Part shown: piece after piece, positions 1,634 to 38,059 of the stretch
Numbering within the stretch: the stretch's first letter is position 1
Layout of the letters: each line of letters begins with the position of its first letter
From: Gracilibacteraceae bacterium
GTDB taxonomy: Bacteria; Bacillota; Desulfitobacteriia; Desulfitobacteriales; Syntrophobotulaceae
DNA: 38,059 nucleotides
Reading direction: 5' to 3'
NCBI GenBank assembly: GCA_031266805.1
Contig: JAISAH010000054.1
Coordinates: 1 to 38,059, forward strand
Notes under the pieces: generated by a model
The model's database searches: none
What the model saw: the letters and a program-made list of their open reading frames with translations, nothing else
Told to the model about the DNA's origin: nothing
Position numbers and translations under genes: made by a program

Positions 1634-2989
1634 ATGGAGATGAAGGATAAAAACGTGCTGGTGGTGGGGGCGGGGCTCTCCGGTCTGGCGGCCGCCAGAG
1701 CGCTGCAAAAAAAAGGCGCGCGGGTTTTCCTCACCGACCGCCAGCCGGCCGAGCGCCTGCCCGGTCTGGCGGATCTCGCCCTGCCGCCGGAATCCCTGCA
1801 CTTGGGCGGCGATCCGGATATCGCTCGCATTCAGCCGCGGATCATCGTTCTTTCTCCCGGCGTACCGCCCAGCCTGCCTTTTCTCCGGGCCGCTCGAGCG
1901 GCGGGAATACCGCTTTTGAGCGAAGTGGAACTGGCGCTCGCCGATTGCCCGGCTTGTCTGATAGGCGTCACCGGCAGCAACGGTAAAACGACCACGACCG
2001 CCTTATGCGGAGCGCTGGCCGCCCGCAGCGGCCATAAAACCGCGGTGGCGGGAAATATCGGTCTTCCGCTCTGCGAGGTCACGGAAGACCTGAGCGAAGA
2101 CTCTTTTCTGGTGGCGGAACTTTCCAGTTTTCAGCTGGAAACATCGCAAACCCTGCATCCCCGCGTCGCCGTCCTCCTGAACATAACCCCCGATCATCTC
2201 GACCGGCACGGCACGCTGGAAAATTACGCCGCGGCCAAGGGGCGGATCTTTGCCCGCCAGACGGCGGCCGATCTGGCCGTGCTGAACGGCGGCGACCCCC
2301 TGACGCGCGCCTTCGCGGCAAGGGCGGCGGCCCGAGTGGTCTTTTTCGCCGCGGCGCCCATCCCGGAGGGCTACTGCCTGAGCGGCGGCGATATCGTCCG
2401 GCAACGCGAGGGCCGCGAAGAAAAGATCATCGCCTGTTCCGAACTGCAGCTCCGCGGGATCCACAATATGGAAAACGCTATGGCGGCGGCGGCGGTAGCC
2501 GATGAAATCGGCGTCAGCCGCGCGGCTCTGCGGGAAACGCTTCGCGCTTTTCAGCCCGTGGCTCATCGCCAGGAGATAGTGGGGGAATTTGACGGCGTCA
2601 CCTTCATAAACGATTCCAAAGGAACAAACCCGGACTCCGCCCTGAAGGCCCTCGGCGCCTACGACACCCCGATCATCCTCATAGCGGGCGGCCGCAACAA
2701 GGGACTGGACATGACGGAATTCATGCGGGCCGCCGCCCGGCGGGTCAAATACCTGATCCTGACGGGCGAAGCCGCCCCGGAACTCGAAGCGCTGGCCAGA
2801 GAGGCCGGCGCCCGCGCCGTCGAGCGTGTTCCGGATCTGGCGGCGGCGGTGGCGGCCGCCGTCAGCAAGGCCGCAGCCGGGGACACGGTGCTTCTGTCCC
2901 CGGCCTGCACCAGCTGGGATATGTTCAAGAATTACGAAGAAAGAGGCGAGTGTTTCAAATCTCTAGTGCGCGGGCATTACGCGGAATAG
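1634..2989 (+). CDS. murD: UDP-N-acetylmuramoylalanine-D-glutamate ligase MurD
   Basis: Cytoplasmic Mur ligase that adds D-glutamate to UDP-MurNAc-L-Ala using ATP. From this start the 451-aa product has an N-terminal Rossmann part (VLVVGAGLSG), the ATP-binding loop GVTGSNGKTTTT (111-122), the NITPDHLDRH motif and a C-terminal ligase domain with FINDSKGTNPDS. Several in-frame starts exist. ATG 1628 overlaps the mraY stop but sits directly against GGAGG (1623-1627); ATG 1634 has a 6-base spacing and is preferred; ATG 1640 is also possible. It is translationally coupled to mraY. Confidence 0.95.
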   Translation: MEMKDKNVLVVGAGLSGLAAARALQKKGARVFLTDRQPAERLPGLADLALPPESLHLGGDPDIARIQPRIIVLSPGVPPSLPFLRAARAAGIPLLSEVELALADCPACLIGVTGSNGKTTTTALCGALAARSGHKTAVAGNIGLPLCEVTEDLSEDSFLVAELSSFQLETSQTLHPRVAVLLNITPDHLDRHGTLENYAAAKGRIFARQTAADLAVLNGGDPLTRAFAARAAARVVFFAAAPIPEGYCLSGGDIVRQREGREEKIIACSELQLRGIHNMENAMAAAAVADEIGVSRAALRETLRAFQPVAHRQEIVGEFDGVTFINDSKGTNPDSALKALGAYDTPIILIAGGRNKGLDMTEFMRAAARRVKYLILTGEAAPELEALAREAGARAVERVPDLAAAVAAAVSKAAAGDTVLLSPACTSWDMFKNYEERGECFKSLVRGHYAE

Positions 2990-3003
2990 ACGGAGGTCTG
3001 GCT

Positions 3004-3201
3004 GTGATAAAAATAACAAGATTATGGAGCGACGTTGACGACCAAGATAATATCACCCTGTTCAACAGACCGCGTGTTTCAATAAAAGTAGATGAATATA
3101 TTTGGGACTTGATTGAACGGAATATAGAACCGCCAGCCATATGGGCGCGCCGCAAAATTATGGTTGCAAGTCAGACTGATTGTAGTATAATACCAAGATA
3201 A
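3004..3201 (+). CDS. Small hypothetical protein, 65 aa
   Basis: A GTG start follows CGGAGG (2991-2996) at a good 7-base spacing, 14 bases after the murD stop, so it could be the third gene of that operon. The product is charged; part of it (RVSIKVDEYIWDLIER) loosely recalls the strand-helix start of a ribbon-helix-helix protein, but no family was recognised. Most of its codons lie in copy 1 of the tandem duplication at 3041-3346. The second copy cannot encode the same protein, because a 4-base insertion shifts the frame. It may be a real small gene or a truncated remnant. Confidence 0.35.
   Translation: MIKITRLWSDVDDQDNITLFNRPRVSIKVDEYIWDLIERNIEPPAIWARRKIMVASQTDCSIIPR
3164..3191 (+). promoter_or_regulatory. 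Upstream copy of the ftsH promoter
   Basis: TTGCAA (3164-3169), 16 bases, then TATAAT (3186-3191), at the end of repeat copy 1. It is identical to the downstream promoter; a transcript from here would pass through repeat copy 2 before ftsH. Confidence 0.5.
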
Positions 3202-3318
3202 TATCACCCTGTTCAACAGACCGCGTATTTCAATAAAAGTAGATGAATATATTTATTTGGGACTTGATTGAACGGAATATAGAACCGCCAGCCATATGGG
3301 CGCGCCGCAAAATTATGG

Positions 3319-3346
3319 TTGCAAGTCAGACTGATTGTAGTATAAT
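3319..3346 (+). promoter_or_regulatory. Proximal sigma70 promoter of the ftsH operon
   Basis: TTGCAA (3319-3324), 16-base spacer, consensus TATAAT (3341-3346), at the end of repeat copy 2. The predicted start near 3353 gives a leader of about 50 bases before the TTG start of ftsH. Confidence 0.6.
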
Positions 3347-3401
3347 GTGAATAGATGGTGTCCCCCTTACCGCGCTGACACGAGAGGAGAGAAGAAGTCG
3401 T

Positions 3402-5402
3402 TTGAAAATTTTGAAAAATCTGGCCGTGTATCTGTTCATTATTCTGCTGGCGGTCATGGTGCTGCGTTGGATAAACCCGCCGGCCCCGCAGACGCCGGCG
3501 ATGGATTATAACACTTTCAAGCAGTCTGTCGGTTCAGGCAAGGTGCAGGAAGTGGAAATAGCCACTACCTCCTCCACCATGACTTATAAGGTCGTGATGA
3601 AGGACGGGGCGAAGTACGATGTGGTCGGTCCGGGGTATGATCAGCAGCTTTTAGACGATATGGCCTCCCAGGCGGGGCTCAAGGTAACTTATCAGCCGCC
3701 GGTGACGATCCCGTGGTGGGTCTCCGTGGCCCCCTCCTTGATTATGGTGGCGCTCCTGTTCGGGGTCATGTATTTTGTCATGCAGCAGAGTCAGGGCGGA
3801 GGCGGCGGCCGGGTCATGCAGTTTGGCCGCAGCCGGGCGCGGCTTGTCACCGACGATAAAAAAGTGACTTTTGCCGATGTGGCGGGCGCGGACGAAGTGA
3901 AAGAAGAATTGGCGGAAATTGTGGAGTTCTTGAAAACGCCGCGCAAGTTCAGTGAACTCGGGGCGAAAATACCTACGGGCGTCCTCTTGTTCGGCCCGCC
4001 CGGCACCGGCAAGACCCTTCTGGCCAGAGCGGTGTCCGGTGAAGCCGGCGTGCCTTTTTTCAGCATCAGCGGCTCTGATTTTGTGGAAATGTTTGTCGGG
4101 GTCGGCGCTTCCCGCGTGCGCGACTTATTCGAGCAAGCCAAAAAAAGTTCTCCCTGTATCGTTTTCATCGATGAAATCGACGCGGTCGGCCGTCACCGCG
4201 GCGCCGGTCTCGGCGGCGGGCACGACGAGCGGGAACAGACTTTGAATCAATTGCTGGTAGAAATGGACGGTTTTAACGGCAACGAAGGCATCATAATCAT
4301 CGCAGCCACAAACCGCCCGGATATTCTGGACCCGGCCCTCTTGCGGCCCGGCCGTTTTGACCGCCAGATAGTCGTCGGTTCGCCCGACGTAAAAGGACGC
4401 GAGGAAATACTCGGCGTACACAGCAAAGGGAAACCGCTGGCCGACGACGTGAAGCTGAGCATTTTGGCTCGCAGCACCCCCGGTTTCACGGGCGCCGATC
4501 TGGCCAACCTCGTCAATGAAGCGGCTTTGCTTTCCGCCCGCTGGGGCAGCAAGCGCATCAGCATGAAAGCGCTGGAAGAATCCATCGAGCGCGTTATCGC
4601 CGGCCCGGAGAAAAAAAGCCGGGTCATCAGCGATTATGAAAAAAAGCTGGTTTCCTTCCATGAAGCCGGGCACGCGCTGGTGGCGGAGTACCTGACGCAC
4701 AGCGATCCGGTGCATAAAGTTTCCATCATTCCCCGCGGCATGGCCGGCGGTTACACTTTACTCCTGCCGAAAGAGGACCGCCAGTATCGGACGCGCTCCC
4801 AGCTGCTGGATAATGTCACCGGTTTGCTCGGCGGCCGCGTGGCGGAAGCTCTGGCCCTCAAAGAGGTGAGCACCGGCGCTTCCAACGATTTGGAGCGGGC
4901 GACGGACACTATCCGCCGCATGGTGACGGAATGGGGCATGTCCGATGAGATAGGCCCTGTGACGATCGGCCACAAAAAAGAAGAAGTGTTTCTCGGGCGC
5001 GACATCGCGCGGGACCGCAATTACAGTGAATCGGTCGCGCAGACGGTCGATCAAGAGGTTCGCCGTTTGCTTGACGATTGCTATTGCCGGGCTGAACGGA
5101 TTATCGTGGAAAAAATGGTTATTTTGGAAGCGATCGCCAATGCCCTGATGGAGAAAGAAACGCTGCAAGCCAAGGAATTTCGCGATATCGTGGATTCGTT
5201 CGACGCCGCCAAGGCGGAAGAACACGCGGCTCTGGAAGCAAAAGAACAAGCGCTGCACGAGGAATTAGCCGCTAAAGAAGCGGCGGCCCGCGCAACCGGA
5301 GAAGCGGCCCGCGCGGCTAAAGAAGCCAGAGAAAGGCAAGAGCAGCGCGAGCGGGATCCGGCATTGCAAAACGTTACGGCCGGAGAAGGCGCCGGCGATT
5401 GA
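3402..5402 (+). CDS. ftsH: ATP-dependent zinc metalloprotease FtsH
   Basis: Membrane-anchored AAA+ protease that extracts and degrades membrane and short-lived regulatory proteins. The 666-aa product has a first membrane segment (about 7-23), an extracytoplasmic domain, a second membrane segment (about 105-127), and the AAA module with Walker A GPPGTGKT (198-205), Walker B IVFIDEID (253-260) and the second region of homology with R315 and R318. The protease domain has HEAGH (420-424) and the third zinc ligand D496. The C-terminal tail from about 600 is Ala/Glu-rich and likely helical. The start is TTG with GAGAGGAGAG 12-20 bases upstream. It heads a run of closely spaced genes ending at folK. 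Confidence 0.97.
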
Positions 5403-5403
5403 C

Positions 5404-6111
5404 ATGGACGGAGCGGCGCGGAAAAGCTGGCCCCTCACCGCGGCGGTGTTTTTGGTCGTCCTTTTAACGGTCACGCTCCTGCGATCCAACCTGACCGCCA
5501 CAGCGGAACCCTCTTACCCTACCGGTTTGCCGGGACTGCTGCAGCTGGAAATTGAAAATGAGCGGCTGGCGGCGGAAAACGAGCGCCTGTGGCAGGAATT
5601 GAATCAGTTGCAGAACAGTCAGAACGGTTCGGCTCTGGCGTCGGAGCAGATGGACACGGCGCGCCTGAACGCGGGCCAGGTCGAATTGACGGGATCGGGG
5701 ATCCGCGTTATATTGGACGACGCCTTGGAGCGGGAAAACAGCGGTTACGGCAATTATGTGATCCATGAGGAATATTTGCGCCAGCTCGTCAATGTTTTAT
5801 GGAGCGGAGGCGCCGAGGCTATCGCCATCAACGATCAGCGCGTGACAGGCCAAACGGAGATCTTTTGCAGCGGCGCTTTTATCCAGATAAACGGGACGAG
5901 ACAAAGTCCGCCCTATAAGATAGTGGCGCTCGGCAATCAGTCCGATTTGCGGGCCGCGCTGCAGTTTTATTTCTGGGATAACCTGGGGCACTACCAGCAG
6001 CAATACGGGATCACCCGAGAACTGGAAATACCGGTCCAACCTTTGACCGTGCCCGCCGCCAAAACTCACGCCATCCGTTTTGCCGCGCAGGCCCGGGAGG
6101 GAGAGAGATGA
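5404..6111 (+). CDS. DUF881 membrane-anchored protein, first copy
   Basis: Single-pass membrane protein of 235 aa. It has a short cytoplasmic start, one hydrophobic helix (about 11-27), a Glu/Asn/Leu-rich coiled coil (about 46-75, LQLEIENERLAAENERL), then an extracytoplasmic DUF881 domain with GSGIRVILDD and the SGGAEAIAINDQRV core. The family (YlxW/YlxX-like) is typical of Gram-positive lineages and often lies near cell-division genes; its molecular role is not established. It begins one base after the ftsH stop and overlaps the next gene by ATGA, so it should be co-translated with both. Confidence 0.85.
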   Translation: MDGAARKSWPLTAAVFLVVLLTVTLLRSNLTATAEPSYPTGLPGLLQLEIENERLAAENERLWQELNQLQNSQNGSALASEQMDTARLNAGQVELTGSGIRVILDDALERENSGYGNYVIHEEYLRQLVNVLWSGGAEAIAINDQRVTGQTEIFCSGAFIQINGTRQSPPYKIVALGNQSDLRAALQFYFWDNLGHYQQQYGITRELEIPVQPLTVPAAKTHAIRFAAQAREGER

Positions 6112-11815: not shown

Positions 11816-12100
11816 TTAACCATAGCGGAATTCAACCCCCATGCCGCCGTTCGGGAACTCCCATTTGTCCAAAATGGTTTTCCCGCACAGCACGCGGCAA
11901 GTTCCGCACTCCAGACAGCCGGCATAGTCAAAGCGCAATACGCCGCTGTCGTCGATTTTATACAATCCGGCCGGGCAAGCTAAGAAAAGTTTATGATATT
12001 CCGCCAGATCAGGACCGTCTTTGAGAACGATATGCGCGTTTCCTTCGTCTACATGAAATTTATTGACTCCCAGTTTTTCGTCTACGTTCACAGTACTCAT
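11816..12100 (-). CDS. fixX: Ferredoxin-like protein FixX
   Basis: Small iron-sulfur partner of FixC, thought to pass electrons between the FixC flavin and quinone. The 94-aa product has an upstream Cys in LFLACPAGLY and the CLECGTCRVLC cluster motif, matching FixX rather than generic ferredoxins. Its ATG overlaps the fixC stop (ATGA at 12097-12100), so the two are translationally coupled. It is the last gene of the minus-strand catabolic block and converges on folK. Confidence 0.92.
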   Translation of the reverse strand: MSTVNVDEKLGVNKFHVDEGNAHIVLKDGPDLAEYHKLFLACPAGLYKIDDSGVLRFDYAGCLECGTCRVLCGKTILDKWEFPNGGMGVEFRYG

Positions 12101-34474: not shown

Positions 34475-35266
34475 TTATTCCCCGATGAAATTGGGCGGTC
34501 TCTTTTCTAAGAAGGCATACACGGCTTCCGCGAAATCTTTGGTGTGCGAGCAGGCGACCATGAACTCCGCCTCCATTTTCGTGCTTTCCTCGATTTTGTC
34601 ATAAAAGAGTTTGTTCAAAATCTCTTTCTGCCGCGCGATCGCGAACAAAGGCTTATTGGCCAATGTTTTCGCTAATTCATACGTCGTCGGCTCCAATTCT
34701 CCCTCAGGCGCCAGTTTGGAAGCAAGCCCGATCTGCACCGCTTCCTCGCCGCGCACCCCGCGGGCAGTCATGGTCAGATCAACGGTCCTGCCGGTACCCA
34801 GTAAGCGCTGCATATAATAAATACCGCCTGTATCACCGCAAAGCCCCATATTGATGAAAGACATCACCATCTGGGTCTTAGGAGTGACCACGCGGAAATC
34901 ACAGGCCATAGCGATACTGCAGCCGGCGCCGGCCGCAGCGCCGTTTACCATAGCGACGACCGGCTTCGGGCACCTGCGGATCACGGCGGCCATTTTACCG
35001 ACGTCTATGATATTCTCTTCCTGTAAATATATTTTTTCCTCAATGAGTTGCTTGAATCGGTTGATATCACCGCCGGCGCAGAAAAACTTGCCGTTGCCTG
35101 TGAGCACTATCGCGCCGACTGCTTTATCGACGCCCATTTTTGTAATTACATCAATTATTTCAACTCTGGTCGTCGGCGATAAGGCGTTGCCAAACTCCGG
35201 ACGGTTAAATTTAACGGTAGCGACTCGATCCTCTACTGAAACGAGGATTTCATCATATTTGTACAT
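34475..35266 (-). CDS. PaaG-like crotonase-fold isomerase (copy 1)
   Basis: A 263-aa protein with the same active-site plan: FCAGGDIN, NGAAAGAGCSIAM, no hydratase Glu pair, and Asp145 in CGDTGG as in PaaG. It is the first gene of the minus-strand catabolic block, so whatever promoter lies to its right could drive much of the cluster. The start is ATG 35266, 8 bases after AAGGAG; the TTG one codon earlier is less likely. The tandem copies differ mainly between residues 70 and 95, near the substrate pocket. Confidence 0.86.
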   Translation of the reverse strand: MYKYDEILVSVEDRVATVKFNRPEFGNALSPTTRVEIIDVITKMGVDKAVGAIVLTGNGKFFCAGGDINRFKQLIEEKIYLQEENIIDVGKMAAVIRRCPKPVVAMVNGAAAGAGCSIAMACDFRVVTPKTQMVMSFINMGLCGDTGGIYYMQRLLGTGRTVDLTMTARGVRGEEAVQIGLASKLAPEGELEPTTYELAKTLANKPLFAIARQKEILNKLFYDKIEESTKMEAEFMVACSHTKDFAEAVYAFLEKRPPNFIGE

Positions 35267-35588: not shown

Positions 35589-35620
35589 TTTCGTAGAGTA
35601 TTCCCCTCTATGAAAACTTT
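35589..35620 (+). repeat. Left inverted repeat of the recombinase segment
   Basis: The outer 22 bases (35589-35610) are a perfect inverted match to 36894-36915; with the next 10 bases inwards, 29 of 32 match. Inside is TAGAG-TATTCCC-CTCTA (5-bp inverted arms, 7-base spacer), the typical core of a tyrosine recombinase crossover site. Confidence 0.85.
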
Positions 35621-35668
35621 CAAAAAATATTCATTTTTTGCCTTACCGCTAATATTCATTTGATTTAT

Positions 35669-36694
35669 TTAATTAAAATATTGGAGTTTATTCATGTTAG
35701 TTCGTTTCAAATCCATAGAAGGATGAACATAACGGTTTAAGGTGATGTTGACATTGGCGTGGCCGAGAATTTCGCTGAGGCTTTTGACGTCGAACCCAAC
35801 CTCGATGCATCTTGTCGCAAAAGTATGTCTCAGCGCGTGAAAATTGGCGTCCTTTATCTCGGCTTCTTTCATATATATTTTAAATTTATTCTGATAGGCT
35901 CTCGGTTCAATATATTGGTTAGGCGCCCCTGTCAGAAAATAGGCGGCCGGATGTTTCGCGCGGAATAGATCTAATTTTTCCAGAAGGCAATCCGGTATCG
36001 GAATGGCTCTGGCGGAACTGTCGCTTTTGGGACTCGTCTCGACGACTTTTGTTTTAGTGACGCTGTCGGTTTCCAATAACTGCATCCTCTGCATTGTCCG
36101 TGATACAATAAGAGTTTTTTCCCCCAAAGAAATGTCCGCCCACTTCAAAGCGCACAATTCACCGATCCGCAGGCCTGTATACAAACATAAAAGTATGCCC
36201 AGTTTGCACAGATCTATGTTCGCTCGGAGATACTGTTCCAAGCGGACCTGCTCGTTCCGGCTCAGCACCCGTATCTCTTTCATTCGTTCCCGCGGCAAAT
36301 TCAAGCGAAAATTGACGTCGATCTGCAAATCCTCATTGCTGGCGTATTTGAGCGCGGATTTTATGACGACCATGATGTCTCGCACGGTTTTGATGGAGAG
36401 TCCGCCGTTGGCGTTGCGTTTGCCGGTTTTTAGCATTTTGGCCGCGAAATCATTCAGCGTGTCGCTTGATATATTCGACAAAGGACAGGCGCCTAAAGCC
36501 GGTTTTATATGATTTTGAATATGGTTATAGTATCTTACGTAAGAAGAAGCTTTCCACCGATTTCTGGAGTTTTCCAGCCAGGCGTCCAATACATTGCCGA
36601 ACAGGTTATGCTTCGGATGTTTTGCCGCCGCCCTATTTATTTGCGATAATTTTTTTTCCTCATATTTATAGCCGTATTCTCTGTGCGACATCAT
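35669..36694 (-). CDS. Tyrosine site-specific recombinase
   Basis: Complete 341-aa phage-integrase family enzyme. An N-terminal SAM-like core-binding domain (about 30-120: NVLDAWLENSRNRWKASSY) precedes a catalytic domain with R176 (TGLRIGEL), K223 (SPKSDSSAR), H286-x2-R289 (HALRH), H312 (LGHANV) and nucleophile Y322 (LNRYVH). All active-site residues are present, so it should be functional. AAAGGTGG precedes the ATG. It is enclosed by inverted repeats; an AT-only hairpin (CAAAAAA/TTTTTTG) lies just downstream of its stop. Confidence 0.93.
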   Translation of the reverse strand: MMSHREYGYKYEEKKLSQINRAAAKHPKHNLFGNVLDAWLENSRNRWKASSYVRYYNHIQNHIKPALGACPLSNISSDTLNDFAAKMLKTGKRNANGGLSIKTVRDIMVVIKSALKYASNEDLQIDVNFRLNLPRERMKEIRVLSRNEQVRLEQYLRANIDLCKLGILLCLYTGLRIGELCALKWADISLGEKTLIVSRTMQRMQLLETDSVTKTKVVETSPKSDSSARAIPIPDCLLEKLDLFRAKHPAAYFLTGAPNQYIEPRAYQNKFKIYMKEAEIKDANFHALRHTFATRCIEVGFDVKSLSEILGHANVNITLNRYVHPSMDLKRTNMNKLQYFN

Positions 36695-36843
36695 TTAAAC
36701 CACCTTTCCCGGCCTATAAGCCTGACAAAAACTGATTGGGATGCCCTTGACAGCGTCATTCCATGCCTCTCTTGCGCAAAAAGGCAGAATTAACCGTATA
36801 CTCAGCATACTCAAATTATTTTGCATACGCCGGCAAAAACACG

Positions 36844-36872
36844 TTGACAAAGATCAGCCCATGGTGTATTAT
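36844..36872 (+). promoter_or_regulatory. Outward-facing near-consensus promoter inside the segment
   Basis: TTGACA (36844-36849), exactly 17 bases, TATTAT (36867-36872). It reads right, across the right inverted repeat, towards a region without a good gene. After inversion it would map to about 35632-35660 on the minus strand, reading into the isomerase gene that heads the catabolic cluster with a leader of about 360 bases. Confidence 0.65.
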
Positions 36873-36883
36873 TAATCGAACGG

Positions 36884-36915
36884 AATGCTTTCTTAGAGGG
36901 GAATACTCTACGAAA
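36884..36915 (-). repeat. Right inverted repeat of the recombinase segment
   Basis: Inverted copy of 35589-35620, 22 outer bases perfect and 29 of 32 overall. The predicted start of the internal promoter (about 36879) lies just before it, so transcripts would cross the recombination site. Confidence 0.85.
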
Positions 36916-37401: not shown

Positions 37402-37430
37402 TTGACAACCGACCGACGGTATGTTATGCT
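37402..37430 (+). promoter_or_regulatory. Sigma70 promoter of the TetR-family gene
   Basis: Consensus TTGACA (37402-37407), 17 bases, TATGCT (37425-37430). The start falls near 37437, inside the palindrome at 37434-37456, so a repressor bound there would block its own transcription. Confidence 0.65.
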
Positions 37431-37433
37431 GTT

Positions 37434-37456
37434 CAAGTACCGACGTTCGGTACTTG
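37434..37456. promoter_or_regulatory. Perfect palindromic operator
   Basis: CAAGTACCGA and TCGGTACTTG are perfect inverted repeats of 10 bases around CGT, lying over the predicted transcription start and 31 bases before the TetR-family ATG. Size and placement are typical of an autoregulatory TetR operator. Confidence 0.65.
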
Positions 37457-37487: not shown

Positions 37488-38059
37488 ATGACAAGGAAAA
37501 ACGATTCGCAGCAGACGATCAATAAAATCATCGAGGTCGCCGCGAGGCTGTTCGCGGAAAAGGGCTACGAGCAGACGACGATACAGGATATCGTAAATGA
37601 CCTCGGCATGTCCAAAGGGGCTATTTTCCATCACTTCGACTCCAAGGAAGAAATTGTGGAAGCGGTGATCGGCAGGCATCGCGACAAGCTCGTAGCTGCC
37701 GCCGAGGCCGCAGCCGACGATAAAAGCGTTCCGGTGCATGAGCGCCTTATACGGACGGCGATGGCGCTGCATGTGAGCGATGATACCGGCCTAAAGATGG
37801 CCGAGCATATGCACAAACCGCAAAACGCGCTCATGCACATGAAAATAGAGCGTATGCTTTTTGACGACGCTACTCCCATCATGGCGAGAGTCGTGCGCGA
37901 GGGCGTGGAGCAGGGTATATTCGACACGCCCTGCCCGGAGGAAGTGATCGGCATGATTTTGACGTACAGCAACAGCGCCTTCGACGCCGAGCATCTGGCC
38001 GGTCTCACCGCCGATGAACTGTCGCGTAAAGCCCACAACTTTATTTGGACGCTGGAGCG
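37488..38059 (+). CDS. TetR/AcrR-family regulator, 3' end outside the window
   Basis: Partial gene, 190 codons to the window edge with no stop. The N terminus is a TetR-type helix-turn-helix (about 10-57): IIEVAARLFAEKGYEQTT, IQDIVNDLGMSKGAIFHHF and SKEEI. The remainder is the ligand-binding helical domain, with His/Met-rich stretches (AEHMHKP, LMHMKIERM). AGGAG (37474-37478) lies 9 bases before the ATG. Ligand and targets are unknown. The same operator half-sites were not noticed in the catabolic block, so control of that block is not shown. Confidence 0.9.
   Translation, partial: MTRKNDSQQTINKIIEVAARLFAEKGYEQTTIQDIVNDLGMSKGAIFHHFDSKEEIVEAVIGRHRDKLVAAAEAAADDKSVPVHERLIRTAMALHVSDDTGLKMAEHMHKPQNALMHMKIERMLFDDATPIMARVVREGVEQGIFDTPCPEEVIGMILTYSNSAFDAEHLAGLTADELSRKAHNFIWTLE

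Follow-up and report, generated by a model that had tools for sequence, protein, structure and literature searches.

A putative self-contained promoter inverton carrying its own tyrosine recombinase next to an acyl-CoA catabolic cluster in a Gracilibacteraceae bacterium

Most known invertible promoters control surface structures, and the recombinases that act on them are usually encoded beside the switch or far from it. The Salmonella Hin segment has an outward-pointing promoter close to one of its ends, and inversion couples it to or uncouples it from the neighbouring genes; Hin acts at hix sites with the Fis enhancer and controls flagellin. The hin gene itself lies inside the invertible segment (PMC5903667), and the enzyme is of the serine type and works with Fis (PMC11868660). 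The locus described here shares with the Salmonella H segment both the recombinase gene inside the invertible segment and the outward promoter near one end, but differs in that a tyrosine recombinase, 10-7-10 sites and an acyl-CoA cluster take the places of the serine recombinase, the hix sites and flagellin. Another comparable enzyme is RecV of Clostridioides difficile (flg, cwpV, cmr), likewise a tyrosine recombinase that inverts short regulatory segments; RecV, however, acts on several separate switches, whereas the recombinase of our locus travels within its single switch.

In a 2025 survey with read-measured orientation, clostridial inverton group 139 is significantly linked to tyrosine-type recombinase/integrase group 35, and the group 35 invertase is placed near the inverton (PMC11892184). 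The two groups possibly represent the same family as the cassette reported here, with which group 139 shares the clostridial hosts and the tyrosine-type recombinase. At the sequence level, our locus corresponds to the invertible promoters of the gut inverton literature. A search of the open-licence literature turned up no description of an inverton upstream of acyl-CoA genes.

The window, i.e., the whole stretch of DNA analysed, is one entire contig (C54, 38,059 bp) of a 3.38-Mb assembly of 152 contigs. The cassette occupies positions 35589-36915 and consists of the following elements:

35589-35621, plus strand: left inverted repeat, with the recombination site TTTCGTAGAG-TATTCCC-CTCTATGAAA
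35669-36694, minus strand: tyrosine recombinase gene (341 aa; PF00589, E=5e-26), within the invertible segment
36844-36872, plus strand: outward sigma70-type promoter, TTGACA-17-TATTAT (11/12 match)
36883-36915, minus strand: right inverted repeat, with the site TTTCGTAGAG-TATTCCC-CTCTAAGAAA in the minus-strand reading from 36915
35632-35660, minus strand: predicted position of the promoter after inversion (in silico geometry, absent as sequenced)

The two repeats are 33 nt long, inverted and identical at 30 of the 33 positions (91% complementary), and both include the perfect 22-base core TTTCGTAGAGTATTCCCCTCTA; we estimate the chance expectation of a perfect 22-nt inverted pair at ~4e-5 per 38 kb. 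The site within them has the structure TTTCGTAGAG-TATTCCC-CTCTA(T/A)GAAA, that is, 10-bp arms with one mismatch flanking a 7-bp asymmetric spacer. Inversion by tyrosine recombinases requires identical asymmetric spacers in inverted orientation, and this is the arrangement found around the segment, the spacer TATTCCC being the same in the left and right copies. Exact copies of the core are present in the whole assembly only at the two cassette ends. One further match, with 3 mismatches (G000:C8:7264-7285, L195), was considered as a trans site; it lies at the end of an ankyrin-like ORF and is probably unrelated.

The only gene between the repeats is that of the recombinase, and its ORF is intact. 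The protein combines PF00589 with a SAM-like domain, and R176, K223, H286-x-x-R289, H312 and Y322 are invariant across the family alignment; we assign these positions as the putative catalytic residues. The presence of a Phage_integrase domain together with the R, K, H-x-x-R, H and Y set identifies a tyrosine recombinase, and the serine recombinase catalytic domain typical of Hin was not detected in this protein. The closest solved structure by sequence is the ‘Int protein’ of PDB 6en0/6emy (E=5e-17), with the core-binding and catalytic domains aligned. This enzyme, which we take to be the Tn1549 integrase, belongs to a conjugative transposon and is not an invertase. Separately, the window recombinase is missing a ~45-residue N-terminal stretch (KRKDGRWEGRY...) that is common to most family members, as are L014 and L099 of its subclade.

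The outward promoter lies inside the segment, with the end of its -10 element 10 nt from the right repeat, and is directed out across that repeat; at the sequence level, it agrees with the consensus at 11 of 12 positions, a score reached by none of the 200 shuffles of the same segment. An earlier note on this DNA had described each of these elements, and they stand with small changes: the intact tyrosine recombinase between the repeats and the TTGACA-17-TATTAT promoter across the right one are both recovered, repeats given as 32 bases (29 identical, 22 perfect) are measured here as 33 (30 identical, 22 perfect), and the 5-7-5 core was correctly placed, although the arms in fact reach 10 bp.

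Comparison with related recombinases shows that this architecture is shared. The closest relatives share 33-50% identity with the window recombinase and were found in clostridial genomes, on plasmids and on gut phage-like contigs, and eight of the nine closest are surrounded by inverted repeats of 23-36 nt, mostly perfect, located ~1.3-1.5 kb apart and with related cores; the one exception is a plasmid copy (L049), around which no inverted repeats were found. A profile built from the window recombinase and these nine was searched against 398 genomes of the phylum. Among the fetched recombinases outside the profile that scored at least 382 bits, 9 of 10 are repeat-flanked, mostly with sites of the TTTCGYARAG type (all seven of the first fetch above 382 bits, and two of three added from one genus), whereas inverted repeats were detected in none of 20 recombinases at or below 302 bits. 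No repeats were detected around L100, a high-scoring relative. From the viral contigs came six clear repeat-flanked cases plus a seventh, L118, whose repeats are imperfect, the others giving no clear call. In the maximum-likelihood tree, the window recombinase belongs to an 18-member clade (support 98/89), in which 14 members are repeat-flanked, the other four have no repeat call and none is classed as repeat-less. Repeat-flanked members occur outside this clade too, and accordingly we do not claim a single origin for all of them.

Across the family, the repeats are 1.3-1.7 kb apart, and the sites, when set in register, consist of two 10-bp arms around a 7-bp spacer (TTTCGYARAG-n7-CTYTRCGAAA). 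The spacers are equal at both ends in 25 of 25 pairs as registered, a figure that is partly a matter of construction. The repeats were detected by identity and several members are mis-registered in the site alignment, and for these reasons no weight is placed on the p-value that compares mismatches in spacers with those in arms. The window cassette shows the full set of family features, namely membership in the repeat-flanked clade, a recombinase inside the repeats, a segment of ~1.3-1.7 kb and TTTCGYARAG-type sites.

The outward promoter recurs as well. In 22 of 25 cassettes, counting only promoters better than at least 95% of shuffles, a near-consensus outward promoter is found on the 5' side of the recombinase, between the gene start and the nearby repeat, although these cases are not independent because the family members are related. 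All 22 have a 17-nt spacer and, with the exception of L014, are located 10-65 nt from the repeat; the mean score is 11.0 for the outward direction, against 8.7 when the same stretch is read inwards and 7.1 for the opposite end of the segment, neither of which shows this pattern. Taken with the repeats, the sites and the tree, this comparison strongly supports the promoter-inverton reading that the earlier note had put forward, and we consider it well supported that positions 35589-36915 represent a self-contained promoter inverton.

A single outward-facing neighbour could be assigned for 14 cassettes. In 11 of these, it lies on the 3' side of the recombinase and is co-directional with it, such that the promoter in the deposited orientation aims away from it; the three opposite-side cases rest on doubtful ORFs. 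Among the neighbours are surface proteins, including S-layer and Cna-B types (L096, L014, L110), genes for Tad pili (L047, L048, L092), a SpoVT/AbrB gene with apparent exopolysaccharide genes, judged by eye, behind it (L090), CheW of chemotaxis (L093) and putative defence ATPases resembling HerA (L045, L119, L157). We regard the family as likely to comprise widespread clostridial on/off switches, usually at surface or defence genes.

Several of these loci are of interest in their own right. On three gut phage-like contigs (L045:2538-6260, L119:7244-10498 and L157:7455-10709), the cassette lies ahead of genes for putative anti-phage ATPases of the HerA/mad8-like kind, with a small HTH gene in between in L045, and these might be phase-variable defence loci. 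In L014, a c-di-GMP-I riboswitch (5650-5735, minus strand; 82 bits) is located within the inverton, in the stretch that separates the outward promoter from the repeat, and on inversion would sit upstream of a Cna-B/beta-helix surface protein. This combination of an inverton with a c-di-GMP riboswitch is shared with the cmr switch of C. difficile, which carries a promoter and is coupled to such a riboswitch (PMC8844915). In L099, signal peptidase and TasA/camelysin-like genes are present on both sides of the cassette (717-1304 and 2896-3936), and hence flipping would choose between two copies.

The window cassette is flanked by a catabolic cluster on one side and by a regulatory gene on the other:

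11816-35269, minus strand: acyl-CoA catabolic cluster of ~20 genes (23 kb), encoding three enoyl-CoA hydratases, four CaiB-type CoA transferases, a hydrophobic permease-like protein, NMO-like and MFS proteins, acyl-CoA dehydrogenases, EtfAB (FixAB-like), two OYE-type reductases, a Fer4 protein and an ETF-QO-like protein, with a small ORF at 11816-12100
34475-35266, minus strand: enoyl-CoA hydratase/isomerase gene, the first of the cluster and the candidate target when the cassette is inverted
37402-37454, plus strand: promoter of tetR (37402-37430) and the palindromes ACCGACCGACGGT and AGTACCGACGTTCGGTACT
37488-38059, plus strand: gene of a TetR-family regulator, truncated at the contig end and faced by the cassette promoter as sequenced

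The cluster, whose first gene starts ~320 nt outside the left repeat, occupies the usual target position of the family, on the 3' side of the recombinase. In its leader outside the cassette, matches to sigma70-like sites do not exceed 8/12 and those to sigma54 sites do not exceed 7/11 positions. As the earlier note had correctly deduced, inversion would aim the promoter at the first gene of the cluster. By our geometry it would then occupy 35660-35632 (minus strand), with 366 nt between it and the ATG of the first hydratase gene. This predicted leader is long and includes a stray Shine-Dalgarno sequence, a 4-codon ORF and a weak stem-loop. A riboswitch search of the window found none, and folding of the two leaders gave nothing above background. 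The same note erred, however, in stating that the promoter as sequenced faces no good gene, because the TetR-family gene (ATG at 37488, plus strand) starts 573 nt past the right repeat, 615 nt from the cassette promoter.

We infer that the segment flips, that its promoter is active and that its target is the cluster. The recombinase would bind the 10-bp arms at both ends of the cassette and exchange strands within the identical 7-bp spacers, and the 1.3-kb segment would be inverted together with the recombinase gene and the outward promoter. In the orientation sequenced, the cassette would be OFF for the acyl-CoA cluster with its promoter aimed at tetR; in the inverted one, the promoter would drive the minus-strand cluster from ~370 nt upstream, and the predicted outcome is two cell types, cluster-off and cluster-on. 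We give this reading a probability of roughly two in three. A bolder version, which we put forward only tentatively and consider rather doubtful, is a two-way toggle between the divergent tetR and the 20-gene anaerobic acyl-CoA pathway, a Hin-like device built on a tyrosine recombinase and recruited for catabolism; if true, a clonal population would split into metabolically different cells.

A catabolic cluster would be an atypical target for an inverton because the other identifiable neighbours in the family are surface, Tad pilus, chemotaxis and putative defence genes, with no evident catabolic target in any other member, and this is both what makes the case interesting and a reason for caution. 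One has to consider that the cassette inverts but that its output is tetR or nothing, the cluster being transcribed from its own or internal promoters in either orientation. Such an assignment would fit the plus-strand tetR gene faced by the promoter as sequenced and the length of the 366-nt leader to the cluster, and it has a parallel in L048, where the cassette lies directly upstream of a further TetR gene that leads a Tad pilus cluster. We nevertheless deem it unlikely, given that tetR has its own strong promoter, which overlaps or adjoins two operator-like palindromes that likely form an autoregulatory operator, that no conserved feature was found along the 615 nt from the cassette promoter to tetR, and that it is the cluster, with no promoter visible in its leader, that occupies the family's usual target position. 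The operator-like motifs were sought near the acyl-CoA cluster as well and are present at tetR only. In another genome, a motif related to these palindromes, ACCGACCGNCGGTATGTTAT, is found at a contig end (G001, C56).

The opposite orientation of the locus was sought in relatives and viral contigs and not found. The recombinase and cassette are absent from the same-genus genomes searched, and the G004 contig breaks off 195 bp ahead of the first cluster gene. A single further genome among 74 of the order contains a close relative of a marker gene of the cluster. Near-identity searches with three cassettes against plasmid and phage collections returned self or nothing, and the all-against-all comparison of family loci revealed no flipped pairs within the repeat-flanked clade, only in a shufflon-type group. 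The latter includes L122, L124 and L126, where related recombinases lie next to an apparent multi-site tail-gene shufflon downstream (site ~AAGTATGACTTTTAC). Segment orientation differs between related contigs of this group, a difference that lends support to inversion activity in the recombinase group at large.

It is conceivable, albeit quite improbable, that the cassette came from a mobile element, inverted at one time and is now decaying and fixed in one orientation. The GC content of the segment, 0.436 compared to 0.546 for the window, suggests acquisition, members of the same family are found on phage-like contigs and plasmids, and the repeats carry 3 mismatches in 33; yet the ORF is undisrupted and keeps every catalytic position, no mismatch falls within the 22-bp core and its spacer, and the promoter retains 11 of 12 consensus positions. 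That the protein simply serves an integrated element as its integrase, with repeats arising by chance or as attachment-site remnants and no inversion, accords with its PHROG and Pfam labels (phage integrase) but is very hard to credit, as attachment sites would be direct and not inverted repeats and would enclose a larger element, the repeats here are separated by only 1.3 kb with no other gene, repeat-flanking is a trait of the family, and relatives outside the cassette clade include some that adjoin the tail-gene shufflons with their orientation differences.

More broadly, recombinase, promoter and sites form a portable 1.3-1.7-kb unit that is met repeatedly in clostridia, on plasmids and on phage-like contigs, each time with quite different genes behind it. 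Other members of the family hint at defence genes under phase variation and at a switch gated by c-di-GMP. If the copy in the window drives the acyl-CoA cluster, a large catabolic pathway would be switched at random, in a case open to direct testing.
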